From a virus, in the IMG/VR virus record IMGVR_UViG_3300033141_002055, positions 1 to 20,831 of that record: a stretch of 20,831 nt of DNA; one strand, given 5' to 3'. The notes below the pieces were generated by a model. That model did no database searches and was not told the DNA's origin. It saw nothing but the letters and a program-made list of their open reading frames with translations. Numbering within the stretch: the stretch's first letter is position 1; each line of letters opens with the position of its first letter. A program made the translations under genes and the position numbers. This document shows, in pieces, positions 488 to 19,354 of the stretch.

Positions 488-493
488 TATAAT
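488..493 (+). promoter_or_regulatory. -10 element of the rightward tail operon
   Basis: A perfect TATAAT lies 16 nt downstream of box 1. A transcript from here would begin at about 500, exactly at the base of the long leader hairpin at 500-560. The spacing to box 1 is 6 nt shorter than in the other box-associated promoters, which suggests a different (perhaps repressed or late-factor) mode of control. Confidence 0.5.
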
Positions 494-499
494 ATGCAA

Positions 500-560
500 T
501 AGCATTTTACGAAGTCCATTTTCTCCCTCATTCATCTCCGGTGGGCTTCGTAAAGTGTTA
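500..560 (+). promoter_or_regulatory. Long leader hairpin with anti-Shine-Dalgarno loop
   Basis: Positions 500-520 pair with 540-560 in a stem of about 21 bp with several G-U pairs; the core TTTACGAAGTCCA 506-518 pairs with TGGGCTTCGTAAA 542-554. The 19-nt loop is pyrimidine-rich and contains ATCTCC at 534-539, the exact complement of GGAGAT at 567-572, which is the Shine-Dalgarno sequence of the next gene. A loop-SD pseudoknot could control translation of the first tail gene. No U-tract follows, so it is not an intrinsic terminator. Confidence 0.5.
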
Positions 561-578
561 ATCAAAGGAGATAAGAAG

Positions 579-1231: not shown

Positions 1232-1255
1232 ATATAATTATCAAAAGGATTTATT

Positions 1256-2599
1256 TTGGCAACTGTTGAGGAATTAGATTATGAATTAAATTTTAAATGG
1301 GATAAGAAAACATTTGAAGGCTTCAATAAATCTCTTCAAAAATCTGTTGCGGGATTTGTAAAACTTGGAGCAGCGATTATTGCTGCACAAGGTGTTGCTT
1401 TTTCAATTGCCAAAAGTGTAGCAGACCAAAACGATCAACTAGACAAATTAGCATTAAGACTAAATACAACTACAGAAGAATATCAACGCTTAAAGTTTGC
1501 TGCCGAAGATTTTGGAGCAAGTGGCGATGATGTTACAAGTTCACTAAAAAACCTCACTAAAGCCCAAGAAGATATACTAAGAGGTAAAGGCGACATAGAA
1601 GCATTTGGAAGACTTGGAATTAATCCAGCAGACTTTCAAAACTCATCTGATTTACTTCTAGCCATAGGTGATTCAATACAAAACATTCAATCAAATTCTG
1701 AAAAGATAAATCTACTTGAAAGAATCGGAGTCAGTACAAACTTACTTCAAGCATTAGATAGTGGTAGTGCTAATATAGGAGCGCTTGGAGAAGAGTTTGA
1801 TAGTTTCGGTGGCACAGTATCAGTAGAACAAAAACGACTCGCTGGAGAGTTTCAAGCGGTATGGCTAAGATCTACAACAGTAATAAGTGGAATGACAAAC
1901 AAGATAGGCTCTAAGCTTTTAGTAAGTATAAATAAATTTTTACAAGTATTCGTTAAATTTGCTCAAAAGAATATGAAAGAAATAACAGCAGGATTTGATA
2001 AGTTTTTTAGAGCGATTACAAAAGCTTCTAAAATCTTATTTATCGTTTTAACAAGAATATTCTCTTTAATATCTAGCATTATAGGATTGATGGGTGGACT
2101 TGAAAATGCTGTACTTGTTGCATCCGCTGCTTTTATAGTATTGAAGAGAAGAATGATTCTAGCTTTTGCAGTTCCTCTCTTGATCGGTATAGCGCTATTT
2201 GCAATTATAGAAGATATTGTAACAGGGCTACAAGGTAAAGATAGTTTTTTCGGAGACCTATTAAATACACTAAGTTTCATTCCAGAAGCATTGAAAAAGA
2301 TAAGCTCATGGTTTGATATAATTATAGAAAAAATAGTAAAAATAGGTACTGATATAAAAGAAGCTTTTAGTTTTGATAACATTAGTTTACCAGATATTAG
2401 TTTGCCTTCATTTGGAGATATCGGAAGCTCAATAAGCGGATTCTTTGGTGGAACTCCACAAGGTCAAGCAATCACCAATAATATAGGCGGTGCAAGAGAT
2501 GCGAATATTACGATTAATGTTAGCGGAGCAGATGGGAGTGTTGTAGAACAAATAAACCAGTACTTCCAGCAAACATCAAATAGAATTTTTGGAGATTAA
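1256..2599 (+). CDS. Tail tape measure protein
   Basis: This 447-aa protein follows the frameshifting chaperone and precedes the baseplate genes, the standard tape-measure position. The start is TTG, supported by AAAAGGA (1243-1249) six bases upstream. Residues about 55-200 are helical and resemble the N-terminal part of phage tape measures (QLDKLALRLNTTTEEYQ, then LGINPADF, later VEQKRLAGEFQAVW). A hydrophobic stretch at about 256-325 holds several possible membrane-insertion helices. The C-terminus is Gly/Ser-rich and disordered. It is short for the family, implying a short contractile tail like those of Mu-type phages. Confidence 0.85.
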   Translation: MATVEELDYELNFKWDKKTFEGFNKSLQKSVAGFVKLGAAIIAAQGVAFSIAKSVADQNDQLDKLALRLNTTTEEYQRLKFAAEDFGASGDDVTSSLKNLTKAQEDILRGKGDIEAFGRLGINPADFQNSSDLLLAIGDSIQNIQSNSEKINLLERIGVSTNLLQALDSGSANIGALGEEFDSFGGTVSVEQKRLAGEFQAVWLRSTTVISGMTNKIGSKLLVSINKFLQVFVKFAQKNMKEITAGFDKFFRAITKASKILFIVLTRIFSLISSIIGLMGGLENAVLVASAAFIVLKRRMILAFAVPLLIGIALFAIIEDIVTGLQGKDSFFGDLLNTLSFIPEALKKISSWFDIIIEKIVKIGTDIKEAFSFDNISLPDISLPSFGDIGSSISGFFGGTPQGQAITNNIGGARDANITINVSGADGSVVEQINQYFQQTSNRIFGD

Positions 2600-2602
2600 A
2601 AC

Positions 2603-3112
2603 ATGGCATTAATTCAGATAAGCGGATTCTCTAAGAATGTTTTTGAAAGCGATGAAAGTGGAATCACTGTTGCTTTTGACGGATTCCTTAGTGTCAATCA
2701 AGTCGTAAACAATATTGTAACTAAAAGACCTATTGAGGATGGCTTTGACTTAACTGATGCTGTTCATAATAGTCCTACTGTCTTATCGGTTGAAATCATA
2801 GTAACTGATACAGCACAGACAATAATTGACAGTAGATCGATTACAAATCTTCCAAACATATTAGGAACTAAATTTGTTCAAACTTATACAAAAAGACAAT
2901 TAAACAGACTTGATGAAATCTCAAACAATAAAGAAACAATTTCTTTTAAAACAAAATATGGAAATTACAGCGGATACTTTTTAGAGAATTTTGCTTATAC
3001 AGAATCAGAAGAAGAAGGGCTAAGAATTAGTTTTAATTTATCAGAAAATAGAACTGATGTTGTTGCAGATACTTCACTAAATATAGATGATAGCATAGGA
3101 TTATGGTCATGA
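2603..3112 (+). CDS. Dit-like / baseplate adaptor protein
   Basis: This 169-aa protein lies three bases after the tape measure gene. The segment AVHNSPTVLSVEIIVTD (about 53-69) and the following beta-rich layout with a Tyr/Lys-rich strand (TKYGNYSGYFLENF) resemble the Dit-like phage tail protein N-terminal family, which links the tail tube end to the hub. It ends with an ATGA overlap into the next gene. The family assignment is by motif and position; a generic minor tail protein is the alternative. Confidence 0.6.
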   Translation: MALIQISGFSKNVFESDESGITVAFDGFLSVNQVVNNIVTKRPIEDGFDLTDAVHNSPTVLSVEIIVTDTAQTIIDSRSITNLPNILGTKFVQTYTKRQLNRLDEISNNKETISFKTKYGNYSGYFLENFAYTESEEEGLRISFNLSENRTDVVADTSLNIDDSIGLWS

Positions 3113-3363
3113 TAATAAATTTAGATTTAAACTTTATCAACAAGATTTTAAAAACAAATCAAGCCGAACTCAGATTCAAATACAATACAAATAATGATTA
3201 TTTCTATTTTGATCTATTTGATTTAGACGGCAATATAATCTCTTATCATAATAAAATAGTCACAGGTTTTCAGTTTCTAGGTTTTAGATTTACTTCTGAC
3301 ACTAATGCAAGTTACGCGACAGCAGAAAATATCTCTGGATTCAAGCTAGTAACAGATGAGTAA
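3109..3363 (+). CDS. Baseplate plug-like protein
   Basis: The protein is 84 aa when started at ATG 3109, which overlaps the previous stop as ATGA; an upstream ATG at 3103 would add only two residues. The pattern of short beta strands (AELRFKYNTNNDYFYFDLFD, LDGNIISY, GFQFLG) resembles the small Pam3 gp18-type baseplate plug proteins, and the order Dit-like, plug, hub, spike is the one found in those phages. It overlaps the start of the hub gene by eight bases, so translation is likely coupled. Confidence 0.55.
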   Translation: MIINLDLNFINKILKTNQAELRFKYNTNNDYFYFDLFDLDGNIISYHNKIVTGFQFLGFRFTSDTNASYATAENISGFKLVTDE

Positions 3364-4261
3364 ATTTTCTACTAGAGACTTAATCGTATCAATAAGAAAT
3401 AAAGCAATTGACAAGACGATAGAGAATTTAAATATAAGAGTTGTTGCGACTAAGACTCTCGCAAGTGTACCAAATGAAGCAGAAATAGAAATCTATAATC
3501 TTAATCAAAACAGCAGAGAAGATTTATATAACAATGTTTATAATTTTACTGAAGATATAGGCAATACAAATATCACTGTAACTTTAGACAATAAGCAGAT
3601 TTTCACAGGTCAATTAATCAATGTAAATAGCACCTATTCTATTCCAGATGCTGAATGGAAAACAGTTCTATATTGTGGCGATGGATTTAATGCTTTTCGT
3701 ACTAAGACTAATAGAAAGTTTGATAAAGGTACATCAAGAAAAGATATGGTTGATGAACTTATAGGGGAGCTTGAAAGTGCTGGAGTAGTGGTTAAAGGAG
3801 CAATAGAAGGCTTCACAAATTGCACAGATAAAAGTTTACTCAAAGCGATCCTGGTTAATGGTGAAGTCGTATCTAATATAAAACGATTATTGAAAGATTG
3901 TTTCAAAGATGTAGATGTTTATGTAGATGAAGAAAAGATAAACATTTTAGTGGAAAAATCAGTTATTAAAAATAATCTAATTGTTATAAACAGTGGATTA
4001 ATTGAACCGCCAACATTAAGTGAACAAGGCATCAATGCTAAAGTTGTTTTAAATTCTAGCCTAAAGATTGGTGCAGAGTTCCAAGTACAATCAAGAAGTA
4101 GAAACATTAGCTTCGGAAATCTTACAATAAACAGACCTAGAAAAAAACAGATAAGTGGTGACGGGATTTATAGAGTGCAAGAATTAAAACACATTGTTGA
4201 TAATTTCTCCAGTAATGTTGCAACAACTGAGATAATCGGTTTAAACTCAGGGAGACTATAG
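3356..4261 (+). CDS. Baseplate hub protein (gpD/gp27-like)
   Basis: This 301-aa protein has the profile of phage hub proteins: an N-terminal beta domain (SVPNEAEIEIYNLNQNSRE, about 37-55), a conserved-looking CGDGFNAFR segment near 105-114, and a helical segment (SRKDMVDELIGELE) before a second beta domain. The hub trimer connects the tail tube to the central spike. The gene overlaps the plug gene by eight bases and is followed by the spike gene with no gap (stop 4259-4261, ATG 4262). Confidence 0.65.
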   Translation: MSKFSTRDLIVSIRNKAIDKTIENLNIRVVATKTLASVPNEAEIEIYNLNQNSREDLYNNVYNFTEDIGNTNITVTLDNKQIFTGQLINVNSTYSIPDAEWKTVLYCGDGFNAFRTKTNRKFDKGTSRKDMVDELIGELESAGVVVKGAIEGFTNCTDKSLLKAILVNGEVVSNIKRLLKDCFKDVDVYVDEEKINILVEKSVIKNNLIVINSGLIEPPTLSEQGINAKVVLNSSLKIGAEFQVQSRSRNISFGNLTINRPRKKQISGDGIYRVQELKHIVDNFSSNVATTEIIGLNSGRL

Positions 4262-4882
4262 ATGCCAAAAGAAGTAGTACAATCGAATAACGGCATGATT
4301 AATTTTATATTCAATGCTATCAATAATTCGTTATTAGAATTAAACACTTCTAACATGGCAACGATAACATCTGTAAGCGATGATAAGACTAAAGTAGATG
4401 TAACTATTGACTCAAGCAAAGAAGAAGTGCCAGACATACCATTTGTAACACTACAAGGCGGAGGAAGCTTTTTACAGTTCCCAATAAGCGTAGGGGATAA
4501 AGTCTTATTGATTTTTGCAAAAGACACTATAGAAGATTGGTTAAGCGGCGATGATGATTTTATCTTTGATTCTAACTTTGATATAAACAATGCTTTTGCT
4601 TTAGTTGGGATAAACAATATTAATCCGATAGAGATTCAAGATTATACGGATTTTAAAATAGATACGATTAAGATCAGAAATGAAAATGAAGAATTAATCA
4701 CAATTTTAAGTGAAACAACTCAGGCTCTAATCGATACAAGTGATTTGCTATCAACAACAAATGTCGTGATAGCATCTGGCTCTAGTGCCGGAACTTATCC
4801 AATCAGTTCACAAGCAGCTTTCACATCACTTAAAACAGCGATAGATGATTTAAAGACAAGACTAGATACATTTAAGGTGTAA
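4262..4882 (+). CDS. Baseplate central spike (gpV / Gp138-type)
   Basis: This 206-aa protein carries an OB-like N-terminal domain at about 30-120 (MATITSVSDDKTKVDVTI, then VPDIPFVTLQGGGSFLQFPI and SVGDKVLLIFAKD), characteristic of Gp138_N/gpV-type spike proteins. A repetitive beta region and a C-terminal helix (AAFTSLKTAIDDLKTRLDTF) follow. No lysozyme domain is present, so membrane puncture rather than wall digestion is expected. It starts directly after the hub gene. Confidence 0.7.
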   Translation: MPKEVVQSNNGMINFIFNAINNSLLELNTSNMATITSVSDDKTKVDVTIDSSKEEVPDIPFVTLQGGGSFLQFPISVGDKVLLIFAKDTIEDWLSGDDDFIFDSNFDINNAFALVGINNINPIEIQDYTDFKIDTIKIRNENEELITILSETTQALIDTSDLLSTTNVVIASGSSAGTYPISSQAAFTSLKTAIDDLKTRLDTFKV

Positions 4883-4884
4883 AT

Positions 4885-5253
4885 ATGGCAACAATGGATT
4901 ATAAAACAATTGAATATAGTGAAGGCGAATTTGATATAGCAATACCTCTTGAAAAAGTAGTAGCATTTGAAGATTTATTATTTCAACAAGTTGATTTACT
5001 TCTTGAAACATGGAAGGGTGAATTTGTTTATGATATTACTCAAGGTATGCCCTATGAAGAAATTTTAGAAAAAAGTTTTGATTTAACTTCAATAGAATCG
5101 GTTTATTATGATAGAATTAAGGAATTAGTTTATTTCAAAGATTTACAAGACTTTGCAATAGATATTGATTCGGATAGAAATTATCTAATCAGTTTTGTGG
5201 TAGTAGCTCAAAACGATGCAACACAAAACTTTAACTTTTCACTAGGGGTATAA
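4885..5253 (+). CDS. Baseplate wedge protein, gp25/gpW-like (DUF2634-like)
   Basis: The protein is 122 aa. The sequence around EDLLFQQVDLLLETWKGEFVYDITQGMPY (quoted here only for position; about 27-55) has the form of gp25/gpW/Mu gp46 wedge proteins, in which a helix leads into a short strand with GE-F. These proteins join the sheath to the baseplate wedge and are not enzymatic. Position between spike and J-like gene agrees with Mu and P2. Confidence 0.65.
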   Translation: MATMDYKTIEYSEGEFDIAIPLEKVVAFEDLLFQQVDLLLETWKGEFVYDITQGMPYEEILEKSFDLTSIESVYYDRIKELVYFKDLQDFAIDIDSDRNYLISFVVVAQNDATQNFNFSLGV

Positions 5254-5254
5254 A

Positions 5255-6376
5255 ATGGCAATAATTACAGACAACGGTGTAAATATTGATACATTAGAAG
5301 AAGCAGTAAAAAATAACACCGCTTCATACTCTGAAAAAACAGGTGATGTTGATGTATCGCCAAGTAGTGCTTCTGGGGAACTTATCGCGATTACTTCTGA
5401 AATGGATGTAAGAAACCAGCAGAATGTAGCAGACGCATTTACTCAAAATACCATTACAGATGCGACTGAATTAAATCTTGACAGCCTAGCTTTAATTAAA
5501 AATCAAGCTAGAAAAGAAAATCAATCAAGTATAGTGTTTGTAAAATTCGAGGGAGTGAATACAACAATAGTTCCAAAAGATATTATTCTAGTTTGTAGTG
5601 ATAACGATGAAGAATTTTTAACAGATTTTGCAGTAACTATAGCAAGTGGTGAAGCTTTTGTGAGTGCTACAAGTGTAAACATTGGAGTGATATGTCCAGC
5701 AGAGACAATCAGCCTCAAAACGGCAATCACTGACATTACGAGTGCTACAAATCAAACTGATGCAGAAGTGGGCTTTGATAGTGAAAGTGATTCATCATTA
5801 AGAACACGACTTCAATTCATCGGCTCACCATTTACAAACAATCTCAAAGAGGGATTATTTCTAGCTTTAGCAGAATTACAAAATACTACTAAAGTTGCAA
5901 TACTAGATAACAATACAGACTCTACAATAGATGGAGTACCAGCAAGATATTTTAGTCCTGTTGTTCAGGGTGGGAATCAAGCAGAGATAGCAAGAATTAT
6001 TTACCGTTATATGGGTGTAGGTAATCCAAGTTTCGGAGATATTAATCAGACAATAATAAGCGATATTGATAGTTCTATATCTTATGTAGTTTCTTATAAT
6101 ATACCTACTGAATTATTAACAGTTGTTGCAGCAACAATCACAACTGCTTCAACATTTAATTCTGATACAGGATTCGATGAAATTAGAGATAATATTGTAG
6201 CTTATTTTGATTCACTAAAGATTGGAGAAGATGCGATTATTCAGAAAGTTGAAGCAGTTTGTTTTATTCAAGGAGTGACAGCAGTGAGTATTCTTCTAAA
6301 TGGTTCAGCAGTTAGTCTCAACTCTACTTTTAAAGAATTGTTTGTAACTAATCTATCTAATGTGACAGCCTCATGA
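5255..6376 (+). CDS. Baseplate J-like wedge protein
   Basis: This 373-aa protein is of the usual length for gpJ/gp47. Residues about 1-70 (GVNIDTLEEAVKN, then SPSSASGELIAITSEMDVRN and ATELNLDSLA) match the start of the family, and SESDSSLRTRLQF near 178-190 matches its conserved D-E/S-LR-R region. It forms the wedge ring with the next gene product. It overlaps the following gene by four bases (ATGA). Confidence 0.8.
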   Translation: MAIITDNGVNIDTLEEAVKNNTASYSEKTGDVDVSPSSASGELIAITSEMDVRNQQNVADAFTQNTITDATELNLDSLALIKNQARKENQSSIVFVKFEGVNTTIVPKDIILVCSDNDEEFLTDFAVTIASGEAFVSATSVNIGVICPAETISLKTAITDITSATNQTDAEVGFDSESDSSLRTRLQFIGSPFTNNLKEGLFLALAELQNTTKVAILDNNTDSTIDGVPARYFSPVVQGGNQAEIARIIYRYMGVGNPSFGDINQTIISDIDSSISYVVSYNIPTELLTVVAATITTASTFNSDTGFDEIRDNIVAYFDSLKIGEDAIIQKVEAVCFIQGVTAVSILLNGSAVSLNSTFKELFVTNLSNVTAS

Positions 6377-6996
6377 CATTTCAAGATTTAGCAATTAGCA
6401 GAATTACTCCAAAATTTGCAAATGCTAATAACTATAAAAATATTGTAAGATTCACGACAAGCATATTTGATAAAACTGTAACAGATATAGAACTAATAAA
6501 AGATTTAAAAAACTTAAACTCTGAAAGCACAATAGTATTGGATGAATTAGGGAAACTTTTAGGCATATACCCAAGACCGATATTGGAAGTTGGCACAACT
6601 GGCGATGGCTTTATGCAGTGGGATGTTTTAGGTTGGGATACTACACCTTTCTTTACTCTTGGAAGTGAAGATATCAGACCTTTAACAAATCTTGAATATT
6701 CAAGACTTTTAAGAGCAGTTGCAACTCTGATGACTTTCAATGGAACAATTGATGAATGGTCAAGTCTTATTGGAAAACTTGCAGATGCTTCAGTATATAT
6801 AGTTAATAAACCAAGCTCTTATGATATTGTAATATTAAAAACATTAACACAAATAGAGAAAAATCTGCTAGAATTTCTTTTAGATAAGATTGACAATCTA
6901 ACAGTAAAAAAAGGTTTTTTAGGAACTTCTGATAATCAGCCTTTTCAATGGGATGTAACATCTTGGGATACGGTCTCTTTTATAGAGCCGTGGTAA
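6373..6996 (+). CDS. DUF2612-like tail protein I analogue
   Basis: The protein is 207 aa. It has LDELGKLLGIYPRP near 55-68, then two W-D repeats (QWDVLGWDT near 83-91 and QWDVTSWDT near the C-terminus), and LRAVATLMTFNGTIDEW near 113-129, features of DUF2612 proteins that take the place of gpI/gp48 after the J gene. It probably joins the baseplate wedge to the fibre. Overlap with the J gene indicates coupled translation. Confidence 0.6.
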   Translation: MTFQDLAISRITPKFANANNYKNIVRFTTSIFDKTVTDIELIKDLKNLNSESTIVLDELGKLLGIYPRPILEVGTTGDGFMQWDVLGWDTTPFFTLGSEDIRPLTNLEYSRLLRAVATLMTFNGTIDEWSSLIGKLADASVYIVNKPSSYDIVILKTLTQIEKNLLEFLLDKIDNLTVKKGFLGTSDNQPFQWDVTSWDTVSFIEPW

Positions 6997-7017
6997 ATTA
7001 AAATAAAGGACAAATAA

Positions 7018-7884
7018 ATGGCTATATCTAACCCGAACTTAATAGACGGTATTGATCTAAACGGAACAAATCAAGGTACACCGGCAACAGCATTAGTTGA
7101 TGACGGATATCTCTTTCAATCAATACCAAAATCAGCAGACATGAATAGATATTTCAAAGAGATATATAGAGGCATGCACTTCTCTAAAGAAAGCGGAGTA
7201 TGGCAATATGATGCTGCGGTGTCTTATAAGAAACATGCTAGAATGATGAGAGATCAAAACATCTACCGTTCTCTATCTGACGGGAATCAAGGTAATGATC
7301 CTTTATCTGCTCCTACTTTTTGGCAAATTGACCAGTGGAGAATGAATACAACAACTCACAATATAACAGCAGATAGTGATTATACTTTAACTTCCGAACA
7401 AAATAATTTTGGAAAAGTAATCATCACTGATACTGGAGTAGTTTTGACTGGTGCGATTAATATCATAATGAGCGATGAAGAGAAAGATTTTATTATTCAT
7501 AATGATACAGCTCAGATATTAACAGTTAAAACAAGTGCCGGAACTGGTATCGCAATTGATGTTGGTATTAAAGCTTGGTTAGTTTGTGATGGAACTAATG
7601 TAATTGAAGCAGTTGATACTACAGAAATAGGCTCTAATCAAACATGGCAAGATGTAACGGCTAGTAGAGCAAACGGAGTTACATATACAAATACTACTGG
7701 AAGACCTATTCAAGCAAATCTAATATTTTATAATACTGCAGGAAATAAGACGATGACAATCGCAGGAAATACAATAACAGTCGCAACAGGTGGACAGTAT
7801 AATAACACAACTGTTATCGTGCCAAATGGAGCAACATATATTCAAAATGGATTAGATGCAAATAATTGGAATGAATTAAGATAA
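7018..7884 (+). CDS. Tail fibre protein
   Basis: This 288-aa protein follows the DUF2612-like gene and has a strong ribosome site AAAGGA. The N-terminal 120 residues carry W/Y-rich segments (GVWQYDAAVSYKKHARM, APTFWQIDQWRMN) similar to carbohydrate-binding or capsid-attachment segments in fibre proteins. The remainder is made of short beta repeats (TVKTSAGTGIAID, TGRPIQANLIFYN, TMTIAGNTITV) as expected for a trimeric beta-helical shaft and tip. It is short for a fibre. Receptor specificity cannot be inferred. Confidence 0.6.
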   Translation: MAISNPNLIDGIDLNGTNQGTPATALVDDGYLFQSIPKSADMNRYFKEIYRGMHFSKESGVWQYDAAVSYKKHARMMRDQNIYRSLSDGNQGNDPLSAPTFWQIDQWRMNTTTHNITADSDYTLTSEQNNFGKVIITDTGVVLTGAINIIMSDEEKDFIIHNDTAQILTVKTSAGTGIAIDVGIKAWLVCDGTNVIEAVDTTEIGSNQTWQDVTASRANGVTYTNTTGRPIQANLIFYNTAGNKTMTIAGNTITVATGGQYNNTTVIVPNGATYIQNGLDANNWNELR

Positions 7885-7895
7885 AAAGGGAAATA

Positions 7896-8300
7896 ATGAA
7901 ATACTTTAAAGATGAAAACAACAAAGCTTGGGTTTATGAAGATGATGCGAAAGAATATCAGATAGAGGATGGATTAACTTCCATTACAGAAGCTGAGTTT
8001 TTAACTATTACAAATCCGCCATTAACACAAGAACAATTAGATGCAATAGCAAAACAAGATAAATTAAATGCTATTGCGACAATCGCAGTAAAAACACAAG
8101 CAGGAAATATTTTTGATGGACATGATGATGCTAGAAACAATATGCTATCAGCATTAAGAGAAGCAGACACATCAAACGAAACAGAAACACCGTTTTGGAT
8201 ATTAGCAGATAATTCAAAACTGAAGCCTTGCACCTATGCGGAAATTGAAGAAGCTCATGGGTTAGCAATTAGAGCAAAAGGGGTTATCCTCGATGGATAA
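7896..8300 (+). CDS. DUF4376-like tail fibre accessory protein
   Basis: The 134-aa protein begins with a small Trp-containing strand (NNKAWVYEDDA). It then has a PPLTQEQLDAIA linker, and a domain with GNIFDGHDDARNNMLSALRE followed by FWILADNS and a final helix EIEEAHGLAI. That arrangement is the one seen in DUF4376 proteins next to tail fibres, proposed to be fibre chaperones or distal fibre parts. The ribosome site is AAAGGGA just upstream. Confidence 0.6.
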   Translation: MKYFKDENNKAWVYEDDAKEYQIEDGLTSITEAEFLTITNPPLTQEQLDAIAKQDKLNAIATIAVKTQAGNIFDGHDDARNNMLSALREADTSNETETPFWILADNSKLKPCTYAEIEEAHGLAIRAKGVILDG

Positions 8301-8327
8301 ATATTGCAAGAAGATAGGCTGTTAATC

Positions 8328-8356
8328 TCACTACTTCTATTAAATATTAGTAGTGA
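8328..8356 (+). promoter_or_regulatory. Stem-loop between tail and lysis genes
   Basis: TCACTACT (8328-8335) pairs perfectly with AGTAGTGA (8349-8356) around a 13-nt AT-rich loop. It lies in the 85-nt gap between the fibre accessory gene and the holin candidate. No U-tract follows, so it is more likely an RNA processing or stability element, or a leaky stop between modules, than an intrinsic terminator. Confidence 0.4.
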
Positions 8357-8385
8357 ATTGAGATATAAAATAATAAGGTTTAGAC

Positions 8386-8604
8386 ATGAACGAAGAAGAA
8401 TCAAAAATACCAAAGAACTATAAAAGCTGGTTTGCATTTGTCACTTTTTTATCGGCATTTGCTTATTCGGTTTTTTCTGACAAAACAGAGCCTATTGTTT
8501 ATACTACTGGTTTATTCTTTGTTGTTATCACCATAGCCTTCATGCTGAGAAGTGAAGAACTTTTACAGCTTATAAAAATCGTGGTAGAAAGGTTTAAAAA
8601 GTAA
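8386..8604 (+). CDS. Holin candidate, two membrane segments
   Basis: The protein is 72 aa with two hydrophobic segments (about 15-30, WFAFVTFLSAFAYSVF, and about 38-54, VYTTGLFFVVITIAFML) separated by a short charged turn, and a basic C-terminus (VERFKK). This is the form of class II holins. It is the first gene of a cluster that contains spanin-like proteins and an amidase without an export signal, which would need a holin to reach the wall. The holin call rests on topology and neighbours, not on sequence similarity. Confidence 0.55.
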   Translation: MNEEESKIPKNYKSWFAFVTFLSAFAYSVFSDKTEPIVYTTGLFFVVITIAFMLRSEELLQLIKIVVERFKK

Positions 8605-8975
8605 TGTCAAGCTTTAATATAAAAGACTATATGCTCTTAGCTTTAGGACTAATTATCATAGGTCTATTATGGTCAAGAAACTCTCTTCAAAATGACTTGC
8701 AAGAAATGACAGATAAGCGAGATAAAAAAGCTTCTGAATTGCTCGTAAGCCTCACGAATGAACAGTCACTAGAAAATGCAATAATTCTATATAATGAAAT
8801 TGTTGAAAAAGACCGATTAGATACAGACAAAAAACATCAAGCATATATCAAAGCGATGAAACCAGAAGCAGTTACAAAATATATAAAAATTTACACAAAG
8901 GACACAGATGAAAATGCTACTGAATGTGAAAATATTAACAGTATTCTCGATAATGTTATTTCTATCGGGTTGTAA
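8604..8975 (+). CDS. i-spanin-like (Rz-like) protein
   Basis: The 123-aa protein has one N-terminal membrane segment (about 9-23, YMLLALGLIIIGLLW) and then a long charged coiled-coil-prone region (QNDLQEMTDKRDKKASELL and onwards), the layout of inner-membrane spanins. Its start overlaps the last base of the holin candidate. The 3' end contains the start of an out-of-frame lipoprotein gene, the classic Rz/Rz1 arrangement. Spanin sequences diverge fast, so topology and nesting carry the call. Confidence 0.6.
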   Translation: MSSFNIKDYMLLALGLIIIGLLWSRNSLQNDLQEMTDKRDKKASELLVSLTNEQSLENAIILYNEIVEKDRLDTDKKHQAYIKAMKPEAVTKYIKIYTKDTDENATECENINSILDNVISIGL

Positions 8976-9144
8976 AGAAGATTGCACTCCCACTGTTATA
9001 ACAAAAGTTGTGATCCAAAAAGTTCCAGTAAAGTGTAAAATTAAAGAAGTTGATTGTAATTACTCTGGAGATAGAATGCAAGCACTCACAGAACTCATAA
9101 GATGTAATTATGCACTAAAACAAGCAAATAAGGAATGCCAATGA
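8908..9144 (+). CDS. o-spanin-like (Rz1-like) lipoprotein
   Basis: This 78-aa protein has a lipoprotein signal ending in LSGC with the lipidated Cys at residue 22. A mature part of about 57 residues with several Cys and VPVK-type turns follows. AAAGGA at 8897-8902 supports the ATG at 8908. The gene begins inside the i-spanin-like gene in another frame and overlaps it by 68 bp. Together the two would bridge inner and outer membranes and fuse them at lysis, implying a Gram-negative host. Confidence 0.65.
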   Translation: MKMLLNVKILTVFSIMLFLSGCKEDCTPTVITKVVIQKVPVKCKIKEVDCNYSGDRMQALTELIRCNYALKQANKECQ

Positions 9145-9701
9145 GTGATGAAGATTACAAAGATATGGTTATAGAGCATGACAAGCACATAGAAAGTCTT
9201 GCTACTTCTATCGAATCTTTGGCTGGTGGAGTTGGAGCAACTAATAGAAAGCTAGAAGATATTATTGATGTAATCTCTACACAAAATGTATTAATTGAAA
9301 AATTTACAAATCTTGAATCAAATCTAAAAGAATCTTTTAATAGAGTGCATAGCAAAATAAGAGTTGTTGAAGATAAGCAAGATACAAATGGATGCCCTGT
9401 TCTGAATATCGAAGCTGAAAAAATAAGAGTTGCAAATAAAAGAATTAGCGACCTTGAGCAAGAAGTAAAAAAAATAATCTCTCCAATGTTGATAAAATCT
9501 ATTGCAACTTTGCTTATAATCCAATCAATTATCTTTGGAACTTACTTAGTCCAATCAATTCATTCACTCGACACAAGAGAAAGCGCCGCATCTGCTGAAT
9601 ATAAAGCACTCGAAGCAAGAGTAAGAAGATGCGAGAACAATACTAATAGAAATTATGGTCACATTACAGGGCGGAATGTTTATAAAAAAAATGAAAGATA
9701 A
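9141..9701 (+). CDS. Coiled-coil protein with one membrane segment
   Basis: The protein is 186 aa when started at ATG 9141, since TAAGGA (9129-9134) is six bases from it and abuts the earlier ATG at 9135. Residues about 10-110 are predicted by eye to be helical coiled coil (KHIESLATSIESLAG, NVLIEKFTNLESNLKESF, ISDLEQEVKKI). A membrane segment follows at about 117-137, then a short charged tail. It overlaps the o-spanin stop. Its place between spanins and amidase suggests a lysis or superinfection-related envelope role, but I do not recognise the family. Confidence 0.65.
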   Translation: MSDEDYKDMVIEHDKHIESLATSIESLAGGVGATNRKLEDIIDVISTQNVLIEKFTNLESNLKESFNRVHSKIRVVEDKQDTNGCPVLNIEAEKIRVANKRISDLEQEVKKIISPMLIKSIATLLIIQSIIFGTYLVQSIHSLDTRESAASAEYKALEARVRRCENNTNRNYGHITGRNVYKKNER

Positions 9702-9723
9702 TACTAATTTTAAAGGACAGTAA

Positions 9724-10302
9724 ATGATAAAAGCAGTAATACATTGTAGTGATTCACCACCATTTGAAGAACTATTGCCAACAATAGATAACCTCTACAA
9801 CACTAAGGGTTATAGCCTAACCATGATTGAAGAAGAATTAGGCTTAATCCGTTCCACTCTGTGGGTGAAATTAAAAAAGGTAGGGTTTAAATTAAGAAGC
9901 AGGAAAGATGCCCAAAACATAGCAAGCATTAATGGACGAAAGTCTAAAGTTGGTGTAGATAATCCAAACTTTAATAAGGATGATAAGCTAAGAGAGTGTT
10001 ATTTGAAAAGAGGGATATATTTTCTCTACAATAATGATGAGTTGGTATATATAGGAAAATCAATTACAGATATCCGAAAAAGATTAAAAAGGCATATTTT
10101 CGAAGAGACAAAAATATTTGATAGGGTAGATGCTTACTTTATTAATTCAGATACAGATGTTCATTTGGCAGAAGTGTATTTGATTAATAAATTCTCGCCC
10201 AAATATAATAAGAATGAGCATGGGGATATGCCTATGACACTAGAAATACAAAATATAGACAAAGTGGTAAAAGAGTCTATATCAATAAGTTTAAAGGATT
10301 AA
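9724..10302 (+). CDS. GIY-YIG homing endonuclease fused to an amidase start
   Basis: The 192-aa protein has three parts. Residues 1-12 (MIKAVIHCSDSP) are the start of an amidase_2 enzyme, 10 of 12 identical to the start of the amidase at 10351. Residues about 24-62 resemble a helix-turn-helix (YSLTMIEEELGLIRSTLWVK). Residues 97-165 form a GIY-YIG nuclease: GIY 97-99, YIG 109-111, Arg near 118-120, Glu150 and PKYN 159-162. NPNF at 80-83 resembles the NUMOD3 DNA-binding motif. The gene uses a strong AAAGGA site that was probably that of the amidase gene. It is best read as a homing endonuclease gene inserted in the lysozyme gene. Confidence 0.8.
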   Translation: MIKAVIHCSDSPPFEELLPTIDNLYNTKGYSLTMIEEELGLIRSTLWVKLKKVGFKLRSRKDAQNIASINGRKSKVGVDNPNFNKDDKLRECYLKRGIYFLYNNDELVYIGKSITDIRKRLKRHIFEETKIFDRVDAYFINSDTDVHLAEVYLINKFSPKYNKNEHGDMPMTLEIQNIDKVVKESISISLKD

Positions 10303-10303
10303 T

Positions 10304-10354
10304 ATGGGAATTTCATCAATAACACTATCTCCAGTTGGTCGAGTAAAAATATGA
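10304..10354 (+). CDS. 16-codon minigene coupled to the amidase
   Basis: An ATG at 10304 lies five bases after AAAGGA (10293-10298) and opens a 16-residue frame (MGISSITLSPVGRVKI) whose TGA overlaps the amidase ATG (ATGA, 10351-10354). The amidase itself has no clear ribosome site, so this minigene probably delivers ribosomes to it by termination-reinitiation. It may be part of the inserted segment. The peptide may have no function of its own. Confidence 0.45.
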   Translation: MGISSITLSPVGRVKI

Positions 10355-10725
10355 TAAAATGTATTATTCACTGCTCAGACAGCCCACAAAATATAGGAAC
10401 AACAGCAAAAGATATTCATAAATGGCATCTAACAAGGGGATGGGACGGGATTGGTTATCATTATGTAATACTAGAAGACGGCACTATTGAAAATGGAAGA
10501 CCTGAATATTGGAAAGGTTCACATGCCAGAGGGCATAATGATGCTTTAGGCATTTGTCTTATAGGAACTGATAATTTCACTCATGCACAATTCATAAGCC
10601 TAGAGAAGCTCTTAAAAGATAAAAACTTCAAAGCCGACGAGATTGTTGCACATTCAGAGATAAGCTCTAAAACATGCCCTAACTTTAATGTGAGTAGTTA
10701 TTTAATCTCAATCGGGATAAGTTAA
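10351..10725 (+). CDS. Endolysin, T7 lysozyme-like N-acetylmuramoyl-L-alanine amidase
   Basis: This 124-aa single-domain amidase_2 enzyme cleaves the bond between muramic acid and L-Ala in the peptidoglycan stem. Zinc ligands visible by alignment to T7 lysozyme are His7 (IHCSDSP), His101 and Cys109 (AHSEISSKTCPN); Tyr36 (GIGYHYVI) and Lys107 sit in the catalytic places. There is no signal peptide, so release depends on a holin. The start has no good Shine-Dalgarno sequence and is overlapped by the stop of a 16-codon minigene. Its 5' end is a second copy of the amidase start now fused to the endonuclease gene upstream. Confidence 0.85.
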   Translation: MIKCIIHCSDSPQNIGTTAKDIHKWHLTRGWDGIGYHYVILEDGTIENGRPEYWKGSHARGHNDALGICLIGTDNFTHAQFISLEKLLKDKNFKADEIVAHSEISSKTCPNFNVSSYLISIGIS

Positions 10726-11114
10726 AACCTATCCAACAATATAGACAAGTCTCTTTTATTGGGTGGCACTTCGACTTTAATAAATAAAGCCCGGATAAGC
10801 CACCTGGCATAACGATAAAACTTCCACATTAAACCATTGACATTATAAGACATAACATCATCTCTTTGCAGTAAAAATAAAGTAACTGCCAAAAAACTAT
10901 TCCATGTCTCAACAGTAATAGAAACATCAACTTTATGTAGAAGCCTAGCTAAATCCAAACGAGTATTATGCTTTGTCAAAAAATAATACATATCATGCGA
11001 CTCTAACCACACTTTTTTCTTAAACTCTCTTCTGCGGATAAAAAACTCTTCATTGATAAGTCTTTGCCCTCTCTTTAACCCCTCTTTAAACACTGAAATA
11101 GGAAGAGTACCCAC
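10722..11114 (-). CDS. Hypothetical 130-aa basic protein (start uncertain)
   Basis: I do not recognise this protein. It is rich in Arg/Lys and aromatic residues (FFIRRREFKKKVW, FYRYARWLIRALF), with a likely amphipathic or membrane-contacting C-terminal half. It converges on the amidase gene with a four-base overlap. The only usable start is a GTG at 11114 that lacks a good ribosome site and lies in the arm of a perfect hairpin (11113-11128). The same frame stays open upstream to 11198 with protein-like sequence (FIELHDASLALIYTRKS), so the N-terminus may be longer, with a non-standard start. Confidence 0.5.
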   Translation of the reverse strand: MGTLPISVFKEGLKRGQRLINEEFFIRRREFKKKVWLESHDMYYFLTKHNTRLDLARLLHKVDVSITVETWNSFLAVTLFLLQRDDVMSYNVNGLMWKFYRYARWLIRALFIKVEVPPNKRDLSILLDRF

Positions 11115-11128
11115 ACTCTTTCGAGTGT
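11113..11128 (-). promoter_or_regulatory. GAAA-tetraloop hairpin over a start codon
   Basis: On the minus strand ACACTC, loop GAAA, GAGTGT form a perfect 6-bp hairpin with a GNRA tetraloop. Its 3' arm contains the GTG start of the 130-aa gene. It could hide the start or mark a processing point after the Q-rich protein gene. Confidence 0.35.
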
Positions 11129-11202
11129 AGATTAAAGCAAGACTTGCATCATGAAGTTCAATGAAATCATTTACCGGTATGAACTTACTGATTTCTCACC
11201 CT

Positions 11203-11535
11203 TTATCTTTGTTGATACTGCTGCTGTTGCTGATTATGTTGCTGTTGGCTTTGTTGATTGCCTTGATTATCCTGGTATTGTGTTGGAGGCTGTTGATAAC
11301 TTTGGTTTCCGCCTTGTTGCTGTCCACCCTGATTATTGCTTGTCTCTTCAAATACTCCTACCATTACCATACCATTTTCGCCTATTGGCAAACCTGCTAA
11401 ATTGATTTTAGGATCAAGCAAAATATACTCTTTGCCATTTGCATTAGTATTTAGTATCCCTAAGTTTGTCCACTCTGTACCCTCTGAACCATCTTGTTTT
11501 TGGTATTTTCTACCTGCAATGCTTAATTTTTTCAT
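11203..11535 (-). CDS. Small beta protein with Gln-rich tail, possible ssDNA-binding protein
   Basis: The protein is 110 aa. The first 64 residues look like a small beta domain (MKKLSIAGRKYQKQDGSEG, then WTNLGILNTNANGKEYILLD). From about residue 66 the chain becomes almost only Gln, Asn, Gly, Tyr and Ser, ending QQQQYQQR. A compact OB-like domain with a Gln/Gly-rich tail in a recombination operon suggests an SSB-like role. It lacks the acidic tip by which cellular SSBs recruit partners. The function is inference. Confidence 0.5.
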   Translation of the reverse strand: MKKLSIAGRKYQKQDGSEGTEWTNLGILNTNANGKEYILLDPKINLAGLPIGENGMVMVGVFEETSNNQGGQQQGGNQSYQQPPTQYQDNQGNQQSQQQHNQQQQQYQQR

Positions 11536-11750
11536 TATTTTTCCTCATTTATTTTTTTATTGTTTGATTTAAACGACCATGTGTAAAGAATCTCATCTTT
11601 TTTTGGACCATATAAAATTGATCCGATTAAAAAAATCGCTCCTAAAATATGATGCGTCTCTCCGCCTTCTAAAAAAGATGAACTTATGTAATAGTAAATA
11701 GAAAAACTATATAGCAATATAGTTGTTATGTTAATATTGATTTCTCTCAT
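11535..11750 (-). CDS. Small membrane protein, two segments
   Basis: This 71-aa protein has two hydrophobic stretches (ITTILLYSFSIYYYISSSF and ILGAIFLIGSILYG) and a charged, Lys-rich C-terminus. It overlaps the gene before it (ATGA at 11747-11750) and the gene after it by one base, so it is an integral member of the early operon. I cannot assign a family; phage early membrane proteins often act in superinfection exclusion, but nothing here proves that. Confidence 0.6.
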   Translation of the reverse strand: MREININITTILLYSFSIYYYISSSFLEGGETHHILGAIFLIGSILYGPKKDEILYTWSFKSNNKKINEEK

Positions 11751-12157
11751 TTTGTTTTCCCTTTTGCAATTTTAAGTAAGACTAGATAGCCAAGTAAATC
11801 ACTCACCACATCTTCATCTTCATCTTGATTCGACATTCTACTAAGTTTATCGTCAATCCTAACTAAAATCTGCCGCTTTGGCTCTAAAGCAGAGTTCCCA
11901 TACTTAGCATTTTTACTTATTAGCATCTCAGCTAACGCATTTGTAATCTCGTAGACATTCTCACTAAAAGAATCACATTTAGTCTCAGCAATAGGACTCA
12001 TTGCTAAATCATTAAGACTTGTGATAGCATCTAGTTTCATATCTATCTCGCATTTGCCAGTGAAACCACCTTGCGCACAAGGAGTGAATGTCTCACTATC
12101 TTTTTCCATATCGCGTTTAGCTACTTGATGATCTTCGTAAGTTAATTCATTACCCAT
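11747..12157 (-). CDS. DUF1599-like nucleotide-modification-associated protein
   Basis: The protein is 136 aa. The C-terminal half has LISKNAKYGNSALEP, ILVRIDDKLSRMSN and VVSDLLGYLVLLKIA, which match the pattern of DUF1599 (nucleotide modification associated domain 1), found in phages near thymidylate or dNTP enzymes. The N-terminal 60 residues contain three Cys and are not recognisable. GGAG upstream overlaps the stop of the preceding gene. A dUTPase and a DNA methyltransferase in the same region fit a nucleotide-metabolism context. Confidence 0.6.
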   Translation of the reverse strand: MGNELTYEDHQVAKRDMEKDSETFTPCAQGGFTGKCEIDMKLDAITSLNDLAMSPIAETKCDSFSENVYEITNALAEMLISKNAKYGNSALEPKRQILVRIDDKLSRMSNQDEDEDVVSDLLGYLVLLKIAKGKTK

Positions 12158-14676: not shown

Positions 14677-15339
14677 TTACTTTCCAGTAGAACCAAAACC
14701 ACCACAACGCTCAACATCACTTTCAATACCAAAAAGATATCCCTTATGCTCTAGTAGAGTTATCTGAGCTATCTTTGTAGCTTTAATATCTCTATTTGCT
14801 TTTTTAACAACAAGAGCACCATTTTTATCTAAACCTATGTCTTCATACTGTAAATATTTAAACCTTTGAAAGCCTAGCTTGTTTATCCATTTAATAGCAA
14901 TATTTGAAATAGATTTAAAATCATAAGGGCGATACACTCTAAGCATAATTTCATCAGGGAAATCTAAATCTATAACACCAACACCATTTTTAATAATCAA
15001 GTGTTTTGATAATGAACTTCTTAGCATTAGTTGGAGGTAGTGAGAGTTCATAAACTTTTCAATTTCTCTTTTTAATACACTTGGATTCTCTCCATGCATA
15101 GCAAGAAAGTTGGCTTTATCTGTAGATGTATTTTCAAGTCTATATAATTCGTCAACTGTGCCTTTGTTTAAATCAAAATCTTTTTCAAAAAAAGAATACA
15201 AATCTATAATTACACCTAAACCTACAAGCTTAGTCTCTCCAGCACCTATAACTACATCTTCACTTGCATATAGATCAACACAAGCACTATACTTACTACC
15301 ACGAGTAGGCTCACACCCCTCAGTTAAAACTTTAAACAT
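14677..15339 (-). CDS. dut: dUTPase (trimeric type) with large insertions
   Basis: The enzyme hydrolyses dUTP to dUMP and pyrophosphate, keeping uracil out of phage DNA. All five motifs can be seen: 1, ACVDLYAS (19-26); 2, RSSLS (107-111); 3, NGVGVIDLDF (118-127), with the catalytic Asp kept; 4, ATKIAQI (187-193); 5, RCGGFGSTGK (211-220). At 220 residues it is much longer than the usual 140-160. Two insertions, at about 47-104 and 135-180, explain this. AAGGA six bases upstream fixes the ATG. The preceding Zn-finger gene overlaps it by 16 bases. Confidence 0.88.
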   Translation of the reverse strand: MFKVLTEGCEPTRGSKYSACVDLYASEDVVIGAGETKLVGLGVIIDLYSFFEKDFDLNKGTVDELYRLENTSTDKANFLAMHGENPSVLKREIEKFMNSHYLQLMLRSSLSKHLIIKNGVGVIDLDFPDEIMLRVYRPYDFKSISNIAIKWINKLGFQRFKYLQYEDIGLDKNGALVVKKANRDIKATKIAQITLLEHKGYLFGIESDVERCGGFGSTGK

Positions 15340-15637: not shown

Positions 15638-16984
15638 CTAAAATAGGCTACCTTTTAGCTTAACAGGTCTATACAACTGACGAATAATACTTCTCATAGT
15701 ATTTATCTCAATCCCATTCCCTGCTATCTTATACGACTGAGTATCACTGTTAACTAAAACAATATCAGAATCATCAAGACCCATCAAACGAAAACACTCA
15801 AGAGGAGTAAACTTTCGTATCATAAAGCCATCAATGATTCCTTGATTACACGCACAATCCAAGGTTTGTGCGACCCCTTTGCCAACACGACCTCTGCGAG
15901 TTTCGCTTCCAGGGTGGGTAAAGTTGATACTATCGTTTTCAGTAGCCACCTCATAACCACAAGAAGTAGCACTTTTAACTAAAATCTTTGGTTGTCTGTG
16001 ACCACCTTCCATAGTGGTGAGCGCAGGGCTTATCCCATCCGCAGAGTCTACTCTGCGGATGCTTTCGTTCCCTTTGATATCAAGTTCGCCAATTTGTTTT
16101 AGCTTAGGCTCTTCTTTTATATAACCTTGAGCATATCCATGTGTGCCACTGCACAGTGATGGTGAAACACCATCACTTGCGAATACACTTGAAGATTGTG
16201 TGTCTTGGTTAATAAATCCAACTTTAATAGTGTTGTCAGTTGGTGCTAGTGCAGCGTTAGCGCGCAAGCAACTAGCACTACCATCAAGGGAACGGGGTTT
16301 CCATGCGAACCCCGTTCCCTTGTCCTCGTGGCGCGCACCATGAGATATGAATCCATCAATCATCTTTTGAGATAGATAATACTTTGCAGAAACTTTTTCT
16401 TCAAGATAGTCTCTAATACATTTAGTGAGTGGAATGGCATCAGAAAAGTGAAAATCATGATAATCATCATCATCTAAAAATCCAACAACAAAAACTCTTT
16501 CACGATTATGAGCCGTTCCTTGCTCTTTGGCATTTACAACTTTCATAGCCATGTGATAACCAAGTTCACGAAAAGTTTTCTCAACTTCTTTATAATCTGC
16601 ACCACCATTTGAAGACAAAAGACCTTTTACATTCTCAAATATAAACGCTTTAGGCATAACTTCACCCATAATACGAGCACCCTCACGAAAAAGAGATGAC
16701 TTTTCACCATCAAAACCTTTTCGCTTACCCGCAAGTGATAAATCTTGGCAAGGGCTACCCCAAACCATTAAATCAACCCCCCCACTATAAGGACTTCCAT
16801 CCATATCTGAGACATCTTCATAAAAACAACTAGTAGGCTCACCATGAAAAGCAAGATACTGAGCACGAGCATACTTATCCCACTCACAAGCAAAAACAAT
16901 CTCATGCTCAAACTCTTCATACTTCATAGCCCACTCAACAGCAGCAAGACCACCAGAGAAAAGAGTTCCTATTTTAATCTTCAT
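15638..16984 (-). CDS. C5-cytosine DNA methyltransferase
   Basis: The 448-aa enzyme transfers methyl from AdoMet to cytosine C5 in a specific site. Motifs: I, GTLFSGGLAAVEWA (6-19); IV, GSPCQDLS with catalytic Cys79; VI, FENV (116-119); VIII, AHNRERV (158-164); IX, RKFTPLECFRLMGL (390-403); X, YKIAGNGI (418-425). ATG 16984 was chosen because motif I begins five residues later and it overlaps the preceding stop. The region between VIII and IX (about 200-385) is long, repetitive (DGVSPSL, DGISPAL, GVAQTL) and richer in GC. It carries five perfect inverted repeats at DNA level. No restriction partner is present, so it may protect phage DNA from host restriction. Confidence 0.9.
   Translation of the reverse strand: MKIKIGTLFSGGLAAVEWAMKYEEFEHEIVFACEWDKYARAQYLAFHGEPTSCFYEDVSDMDGSPYSGGVDLMVWGSPCQDLSLAGKRKGFDGEKSSLFREGARIMGEVMPKAFIFENVKGLLSSNGGADYKEVEKTFRELGYHMAMKVVNAKEQGTAHNRERVFVVGFLDDDDYHDFHFSDAIPLTKCIRDYLEEKVSAKYYLSQKMIDGFISHGARHEDKGTGFAWKPRSLDGSASCLRANAALAPTDNTIKVGFINQDTQSSSVFASDGVSPSLCSGTHGYAQGYIKEEPKLKQIGELDIKGNESIRRVDSADGISPALTTMEGGHRQPKILVKSATSCGYEVATENDSINFTHPGSETRRGRVGKGVAQTLDCACNQGIIDGFMIRKFTPLECFRLMGLDDSDIVLVNSDTQSYKIAGNGIEINTMRSIIRQLYRPVKLKGSLF
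15851..16322. repeat. Cluster of five perfect inverted repeats inside the methyltransferase gene
   Basis: Arms: CGCACAA 15851-15857 / TTGTGCG 15866-15872; CATCCGCAGAGT 16036-16047 / ACTCTGCGGATG 16050-16061; AGTGATGGTG 16155-16164 / CACCATCACT 16168-16177; GTGCTAGT 16243-16250 / ACTAGCAC 16271-16278; CAAGGGAACGGGGTT 16285-16299 / AACCCCGTTCCCTTG 16308-16322. All are in frame within the target-recognition region and none lies in the conserved catalytic motifs. Confidence 0.75.
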
Positions 16985-17165
16985 ATTCTCTTTCTCTCTT
17001 TTCTTCCATCTCCATATCAGCCACATCATCCATCATCGAATCAAAAGCTTCATGAGCTTCATCCCACAAGTCCTCAGCACTTCTGCCAACATTATCACCG
17101 TCAGCTTCTAGCTCTTCATATTTGGCTTGTACCCATTCTTCTCTTTTTGCTTTGTCGTTCCTCAT
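16974..17165 (-). CDS. Hypothetical 63-aa acidic protein
   Basis: A helical, strongly acidic protein (AEDLWDEAHEAFDSMMDD, then MEMEEKREREYED) with WVQAKYEEL near the start. Similar small acidic proteins stand in many phage early regions, but I know no function. Its start overlaps the stop of the 42-aa gene (ATGA) and its 3' end overlaps the methyltransferase start, so the three are translated together. Confidence 0.6.
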   Translation of the reverse strand: MRNDKAKREEWVQAKYEELEADGDNVGRSAEDLWDEAHEAFDSMMDDVADMEMEEKREREYED

Positions 17166-17358: not shown

Positions 17359-17380
17359 GGAAAATGATTTATTTTTACAT

Positions 17381-17386
17381 TATAAT
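17381..17386 (+). promoter_or_regulatory. Rightward -10 element of box-4 divergent promoter
   Basis: A perfect TATAAT 22 nt after box 4, giving a leader of about 20 nt with AAAAAAGGAGAT before ATG 17412. No -35 hexamer is apparent. Confidence 0.65.
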
Positions 17387-17411
17387 TAGGCTACAAAAAA
17401 GGAGATACAAC

Positions 17412-17927
17412 ATGAAGATTTTAAACAGATGGAACTTGAAAGTAATTTTTGAGTGCGAGAAAGAGACTATAAAAGAAACAGTAGAAGACGCAAACCTAAT
17501 AGGCGCAAACCTAAGAGGCGCAGACCTAATAGACGCAAACCTAAGAGGCGCAAACCTAAGAGGCGCAGACCTAATAGACGCAGACCTAAGAGGCGCAGAC
17601 CTAAGAGACGCAAACCTAATAGACGCAGACCTAAGAGGCGCAGACCTAAGAGGCGCAGACCTAATAGACGCAGACCTAAGAGGCGCAGACCTAAGAGACG
17701 CAAACCTAATACAAATCACACTACCATACTATCAAGTAATAGTGCAAAAAACACATACTAGAATTGGTTGTCAATATTATAGCAACATAGAATGGAAAGG
17801 ATATAATGATGATACAATCAAAGAAATGGATTCAAATGCTCTTTCTTTTTGGGAATCATATAAGAAAATTATCTTTAGTGCAATGGAAAGTTTACAGGAT
17901 GATGAAAATGAAAAACACACTAAATAG
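17412..17927 (+). CDS. Pentapeptide repeat protein
   Basis: The 171-aa protein holds 15 consecutive A(N/D)L(I/R)(G/D) pentapeptides at residues 27-101, enough for nearly four coils of a right-handed quadrilateral beta-helix. A short N-terminal strand precedes them. The C-terminal domain ([20 protein letters not shown], then [14 protein letters not shown]) is one often found after such repeats. ATG 17412 is preceded by GGAGATACAAC. Some pentapeptide proteins mimic DNA and bind gyrase (Qnr, MfpA); whether this one does is unknown. Alternate frames over the repeat are open only because the repeat is so regular. Confidence 0.85.
17490..17710 (+). repeat. 15-bp tandem repeat array (14 full units plus one partial)
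   Basis: The unit is GCARACCTAAKAGRC. Only three of its 15 positions vary, each with two states (AAC/GAC, AGA/ATA, GGC/GAC), and every variant changes the amino acid. Units 4-9 and 10-15 form a 90-bp higher-order duplication differing only at the N/D site in two units. Confidence 0.9.
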
Positions 17928-18716: not shown

Positions 18717-18925
18717 TATCAATTAAATACTAAGTTTTGGATTGCGGATTCGTGGTTGGCTTAGTGTTTATAGATACATTCTTAAATTAACAAAACAACG
18801 AGTTTATAAAGGTTACCAAGCTGAGGTTATCTTTTTTGATAACCTTTATACACTCCGATACACATCAGTCGAGAAGCTTGGTAACCTCTCCCCTGATTGA
18901 GTGTAAATCTAAAAATACCTACAAT
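18717..18925 (+). ncRNA. Structured leader or small RNA upstream of the HNH gene
   Basis: This gene-free stretch holds strong, nested pairings. Stem 1: 18724-18734 with 18760-18770, 11 bp. Stem 2: AGGTTACCAAGCT 18810-18822 with AGCTTGGTAACCT 18875-18887, 13 bp perfect. Inside it stem 3: AGGTTATC 18824-18831 with GATAACCT 18838-18845, 8 bp around six T. A competing stem, TATAAAGGTTA 18805-18815 with TAACCTTTATA 18840-18850 (11 bp perfect), cannot form together with stems 2 and 3. The arrangement suits a switch-type leader, a small RNA, or a replication-origin dyad. The following gene has no visible Shine-Dalgarno sequence. Confidence 0.5.
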
Positions 18926-19354
18926 ATGAAAATAGACAAAAAAGCTATTAATTATTATTTTTCTTTTTTTGAAGTATCGAAAGAACTTAATCAAAAACAG
19001 TTTTATGATTTTAATATGGCTATTTACAAAGTTATGTTTAGCAAAGGCTCTAATTTTGAAAATACTAAAAATGTAATATTTAAAGATGAACACTGGAATG
19101 ATGAATGGGATGGCATAGTCATACAGTTATCAAAACGAGATAGAAACTCGTATGATTATACCCATTGGAGAACTTCTGTCTTTGAAAGAGACTTGTACTC
19201 ATGTCAAGTATGCAAAAACAGCATAGGTAAACTAAATGCACATCATGTAGTTAGGTGGATTGATAGTGTAGAAAAAAGGTTCGAGTTGTCTAATGGCATT
19301 ACTCTCTGTATTCCATGTCATCAAAAGGTGCATAGAGGGGAAATTAAATTATGA
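18926..19354 (+). CDS. HNH endonuclease
   Basis: The 142-aa protein ends in a clear HNH nuclease with zinc ligands: CQVC (93-96), AHH (105-107), Asn123 in NGITLC, and CIPCHQKVH (128-136). The N-terminal half (KAINYYFSFFEVSKELNQ) is unlike known DNA-binding motifs. ATG 18926 is the first good start after the structured leader, which lies upstream of it; no Shine-Dalgarno sequence is visible. It overlaps the next gene by four bases (ATGA). It may be a free-standing homing-type nuclease or a phage replication/packaging nuclease. Confidence 0.8.
   Translation: MKIDKKAINYYFSFFEVSKELNQKQFYDFNMAIYKVMFSKGSNFENTKNVIFKDEHWNDEWDGIVIQLSKRDRNSYDYTHWRTSVFERDLYSCQVCKNSIGKLNAHHVVRWIDSVEKRFELSNGITLCIPCHQKVHRGEIKL

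Follow-up and report, generated by a model that had tools for sequence, protein, structure and literature searches.

A GIY-YIG endonuclease-like gene in the start of a phage amidase gene, followed by a diverged substitute start: a probable natural home-and-rescue unit

A phage record of IMG/VR (IMGVR_UViG_3300033141_002055, positions 1 to 20,831; this whole stretch of 20,831 nucleotides is referred to as the window) encodes a GIY-YIG homing-endonuclease-like protein that begins with the first codons of an amidase (endolysin) gene, followed by an intact amidase whose own first 21 codons appear to be foreign. Based on this anatomy, on the uninterrupted sites found in related phages and on a second locus with an unrelated nuclease, it is probable that the arrangement is a homing unit, in which a nuclease lodged in the amidase start carries a substitute for that start, with coupled translation of the amidase and a cycle of homing and rescue. 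The features concerned are given below; L006 and L009 are related phages with an uninterrupted amidase.

9135-9701, + strand: left neighbour, a coiled-coil, probable membrane protein of the lysis cassette; a homologue lies immediately 5' of the uninterrupted amidase of L009
9713-9718, + strand: Shine-Dalgarno-like AAAGGA serving the nuclease ATG, read from the sequence
9724-9760, + strand: native amidase 5' end, comprising codons 1-12 and one further base, with which the nuclease ORF now begins; 36/37 bases as in L006 8001-8037
9724-10302, + strand: GIY-YIG homing-endonuclease-like ORF, 192 aa (PF01541, PHROG 1111, UvrC alignment, AlphaFold model)
9761-10412, + strand: inserted or replaced segment, 652 bp where L006 has 25 bp (8038-8062); blastn blocks stop at 9760 and resume at 10413, and a likelihood change-point lies near amidase nt 69
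10304-10354, + strand: 16-codon minicistron MGISSITLSPVGRVKI, with AAAGGA upstream and a stop that overlaps the amidase start (ATGA), from the sequence
10351-10725, + strand: intact hybrid N-acetylmuramoyl-L-alanine amidase of the T7-lysozyme type, 124 aa (PF01510, E=1e-10; T7 lysozyme 1lba, E=5e-23)
10351-10413, + strand: foreign or diverged amidase codons 1-21, with zinc ligand H7; 35/63 bases as in L006, residues 14-21 off the family consensus
10414-10725, + strand: native body of the amidase (codons 22-124 and the stop); 86.6% nucleotide identity to L006 8063-8375

These genes belong to a lysis cassette located 3' of the tail genes, in the order 72-aa ORF, Rz/Rz1-like spanin gene (PHROG 456, E=0.002), coiled-coil gene, nuclease ORF and amidase. 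Another IMG/VR contig (G001) has 100% identity to window positions 1-11873, so the nuclease/amidase layout is not an assembly chimera of one record. Elsewhere in the window there are a dUTPase-like ORF (14677-15339, - strand) and a probable C5 cytosine DNA methyltransferase (15638-17029, - strand), both named by sequence appearance only, a pentapeptide-repeat protein with ANLRGADL repeats (17364-17927, + strand) and a second endonuclease, of the HNH type (18836-19354, + strand; Pfam E=1e-6), whose stop codon shares an ATGA at 19351 with the start codon of the gene that follows. The N-terminal part of this HNH protein had no relatives in the phage collection searched and might likewise be a captured piece of a gene.

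The nuclease ORF starts with MIKAVIHCSDSPP and the downstream amidase with MIKCIIHCSDSPQ. The preliminary description had noted an amidase-like start on the GIY-YIG protein, and this likeness is real: the two starts share 10/12 residues and 21/36 bases, with serine codons swapped between AGY and TCN (AGT/TCA and TCA/AGC). Chance is not the explanation, since the uninterrupted amidase start of L006 agrees with the nuclease start at 36/37 bases, vs 23/37 for the downstream amidase of the window.

L006 (=G002) is a sister phage with about 86-90% nucleotide identity to the window over most of the tail region. In blastn comparisons, window 9722-9760 matched L006 7999-8037 (97%) and window 10413-10725 matched L006 8063-8375 (86.6%, like the rest of the genome). 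The native gene thus lies in two parts, codons 1-12 at the head of the nuclease and codons 22-124 as the present amidase body, and has lost codons 13-21. The 652-bp segment between these blocks holds the nuclease, the minicistron and the foreign amidase start. In L009, a homologue of the left neighbour (score 246, against a maximum of 56 in 200 shuffles) lies directly 5' of an uninterrupted amidase, the start of which shares 31/36 bases with that of the nuclease. Thus, the insertion of the nuclease in the amidase 5' end, as originally proposed, is borne out by close relatives in which the site is uninterrupted, L006 matching the right part and L009 supplying the left neighbour. On the left of the amidase, the window (9135-9701) and L006 (7576-8004) have unrelated genes (score 34), with flanks that are 86-97% identical; by sequence, this difference is best described as a separate exchange of modules within the lysis cassette. 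About 1.5 kb of L006 (1675-3188), with a diverged second copy of a baseplate gene (window 4885-5253) and a collagen-like fibre gene, are absent from the window.

Codons 1-21 are the sole strongly diverged part of the downstream amidase, with the maximum-likelihood change-point at nt 69. They have 35/63 bases in common with L006, vs 267/309 (86%) for codons 22-124 (Fisher P=1.6e-7); in L006 and L008, a more distant pair, 53/63 bases of codons 1-21 are kept. At the protein level, L006, L008, L009 and other close relatives show QGRGDxAETIH and the window shows QNIGTTAKDIH; versions like QNIGAKEI are present in another amidase clade. The simplest reading of these comparisons is that the downstream start is foreign and derives from a different amidase lineage, rather than being a local copy recoded in place. 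The substitute start can be searched for as MIKCIIHCSDSPQNIGTTAKD. Its donor was not matched by a 61-residue query against viral contigs or by a DNA search of phages, and no uninterrupted gene matching it at the DNA level was found, the best agreeing at 34/54 bases. A candidate donor, L253 (MIKCIIHCSDSEQ), was rejected, being close over the first 23 bases only (21/23 by eye).

The preliminary description also held that a functional lysozyme remains 3' of the nuclease, and the downstream ORF does look functional: it is complete, and H7, Y36, H101, K107 and C109 (zinc ligands and catalytic Tyr/Lys) are invariant in the alignment, in which it was aligned to T7 lysozyme. Since the substitute start supplies zinc ligand H7, the amidase body without it would be no enzyme, judging from the T7 lysozyme alignment.

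By sequence comparison the catalytic motifs are intact in the nuclease as well as in the amidase. The GIY-YIG domain occupies nuclease residues 97-162 (Pfam PF01541, E=7e-6), the ORF matches the PHROG 1111 endonuclease (E=8e-7), and GIY, YIG-K, R, E150 and N align with UvrC and relatives, although the UvrC alignment is weak (E=0.017). The AlphaFold model is a weak one in view of its mean pLDDT of 48.5; in it, residues 1-11 are disordered, the first helix, from residue 14, lies directly C-terminal to the amidase-derived part, and helices 14-27, 32-39 and 45-52 follow one another in helix-turn-helix order, with a Pfam HTH_8 match of E=0.16 only. For annotators, the amidase-like start of the nuclease should be taken as a scar and not as a domain. 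Apart from the identical contig G001, the searches found no second genome with this nuclease, which is a near-singleton; the GIY-YIG relatives L003, L004 and L087 were set aside, as they have only the catalytic domain in common with it and represent another type of protein. Among the relatives searched, no homing-endonuclease-like frame occurred without an adjacent amidase.

Capture of the ribosome site and start codon of the amidase by the nuclease, another proposal of the initial reading, is supported as well; an AAAGGA is located before the nuclease ATG, and the site at the amidase ATG is only a weak one. The minicistron between the two genes, with its own AAAGGA and an ATGA overlap, suggests that the amidase is translated by coupling to it. 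A resemblance between this minicistron and the native gene's right half (SPVGRV vs SPQGRG) was considered as a remnant and rejected, the best alignment (14/23; shuffle P=0.10) not being significant.

A second locus with a comparable layout was detected in another phage genome, L030. Its ORF 4991-5662 encodes an HNH endonuclease (Pfam E=7e-10) with an amidase leader of 37 residues, and PHROG amidase 822 matches residues 3-42; the intact amidase starts at 5650, within the end of the HNH ORF. Over 26 aligned codons, the two starts of L030 are identical at 23 residues and 53/78 bases (68%). Phage HNH relatives of the L030 protein match only from about residue 100 and do not cover the leader, so the amidase leader is specific to the L030 site. 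In L030, apparently an independent second case, the nuclease is inserted at another point than in the window and belongs to a different family. An empty site for L030 was sought via the terminase and not found, the relatives reached in this way having no amidase there. Among the amidase loci scanned, only the window and L030 showed the layout, and in a survey of HNH_3 for generality the query itself was the only match. L030 also contains a second HNH endonuclease ORF (3019-3594; HNH_3, E=8e-15), which adjoins the terminase gene and whose start, VNYQP, is faintly like the terminase start FNYKP.

In the proposed mechanism, a GIY-YIG gene would have entered the conserved amidase start after codon 12, producing an in-frame fusion on the ribosome site and start codon of the amidase. 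The same segment would carry, 3' of the nuclease, the 21-codon substitute start, followed from codon 22 on by the native body; the amidase would be read by translational coupling from the minicistron. During mixed infection, the enzyme would cut the amidase start in a sister phage where it is uninterrupted, and repair would copy nuclease and substitute start together into the recipient, which would gain the element and keep its lysis enzyme; as the substitute start would lack the target, the carrier would not be cut again. The L006 start and the window start constitute a concrete, cloneable pair of alleles for cutting and immunity. Given that neither a donor nor a second genome with the nuclease (besides the identical contig) was found, homing between lineages has not been seen.

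The same anatomy could have arisen in two events, the nuclease first breaking the amidase and a later recombination with the amidase of another phage providing the new start, which in that case would at no time have travelled in a mobile unit. Both junctions fit this course; lysis cassettes are mosaic, as illustrated by the different left neighbours of the window and L006, and no donor was found that pairs the nuclease with the start. However, a phage with a broken lysis gene would have to persist between the two events, and the unrelated nuclease of L030 shows the same finished layout, so that we regard two separate events as unlikely. Ordinary mosaicism, in which illegitimate recombination fused a passenger nuclease that does not home, or has ceased to, and the arrangement lacks a cleave-and-rescue function, seems distinctly unlikely: it would suit a near-singleton whose mobility is only inferred, but not the intact GIY-YIG motif, nor the insertion in the most conserved part of the target with a precise 25-bp replacement, nor a second case involving another nuclease family.

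The preliminary description favoured an origin in which the amidase 5' end was duplicated in tandem on the spot and then recoded under selection to escape cleavage; on this point the comparison leads elsewhere, as the start looks imported. The serine codon swaps speak for recoding, as does L030, where synonymous codons mostly differ (4/22 informative codons identical, 8.1 expected, P=0.046), an excess that is marginal. In the window, 3/9 synonymous codons are identical where random codon choice predicts 4.0 (P=0.35), which means that there is no excess recoding; furthermore, residues 14-21, conserved among relatives, change class (QGRGDNAET to QNIGTTAKD) between lineages otherwise about 13% diverged at the DNA level. 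Duplication in place is therefore very improbable. Restoration of the amidase by a self-splicing intron or an intein can practically be dismissed, for although the nuclease ORF continues the frame of a coding fragment 5' of it, like some intron ORFs, no Rfam intron matched in 9000-11200 at E<=1, only 48 nt of non-ORF sequence separate the nuclease from the amidase, too little for a ribozyme, and the nuclease ORF stops at 10302 with the amidase complete and having its own start.

Considering the homing unit of the window together with L030, we tentatively suggest a broader possibility, namely that unrelated phage endonuclease families (GIY-YIG and HNH) have repeatedly evolved natural home-and-rescue drives that settle in an endolysin start, capture its start codon and bring a cleavage-proof substitute.

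Among known systems, the T4-like Seg and Mob endonucleases resemble the window in that the nuclease adjoins a conserved target, with presumed spread by cleavage and co-conversion and with translational overlaps with neighbours (PMC2988022). Free-standing endonucleases of the T4 type either have intact genes on both sides or divide a gene into two polypeptides that reassemble, as in Aeh1 nrdA and gene 43 of phage 25 (PMC2988022), whereas in the window the substitute start appears to restore the target as one protein, the nuclease having captured the native start. No mention of start replacement occurs in the searched passages of papers on homing endonuclease genes of ICP1 (PMC10448857) and on Skunavirus HNH endonucleases (PMC12724721), and no description of 5'-end replacement in phages was found in the literature searched, which was mostly outside subscription journals. 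Homing endonuclease genes without an intron or intein are expected beside essential genes, or splitting them into pieces that still assemble; the layout of the window represents another solution, in which a replacement is carried for the part destroyed. Integrative elements such as e14 in icd are mobile elements that likewise bring a diverged replacement of the displaced gene end, but they act by integrase-mediated site-specific recombination with no homing endonuclease, and the end replaced is usually the 3' one.

The engineered HomeR and Cleave-and-Rescue systems (PMC7968924, PMC7951863) also put a nuclease into an essential gene and make good the part destroyed by a cleavage-proof replacement; they are synthetic, CRISPR-based, eukaryotic and deliberately recoded, whereas the start in the window is natural and apparently borrowed from another lineage. 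The closest likeness in anatomy is to the mORF hybrids of fungal mitochondria, reported in atp6 of Allomyces and in atp6, atp9, cox2 and nad3 of Glomus (PMC3630166; see also PMC4019555). There, a homing endonuclease gene in an essential gene is accompanied by a foreign gene end, the native end is displaced but retained, and the DNA of the two ends is diverged while the protein is similar (63.5% nucleotide and 91% amino acid identity for the native and foreign ends of Glomus atp6; PMC3630166). The window likewise retains the native start (9724-9760) next to the foreign one (10351-10413). The differences are that the mORF carries a foreign 3' end and moves the native C-terminus downstream, whereas the window carries a 5' end and its native start, upstream, heads the nuclease; that one resides in a mitochondrion and the other in a phage; and that the new start of the window needs its own translation initiation. 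By this analogy, the layout is the 5' mirror image of a fungal mORF hybrid, present in phages with two nuclease families, and would be a phage counterpart both to the mORF hybrids and to the engineered home-and-rescue drives.
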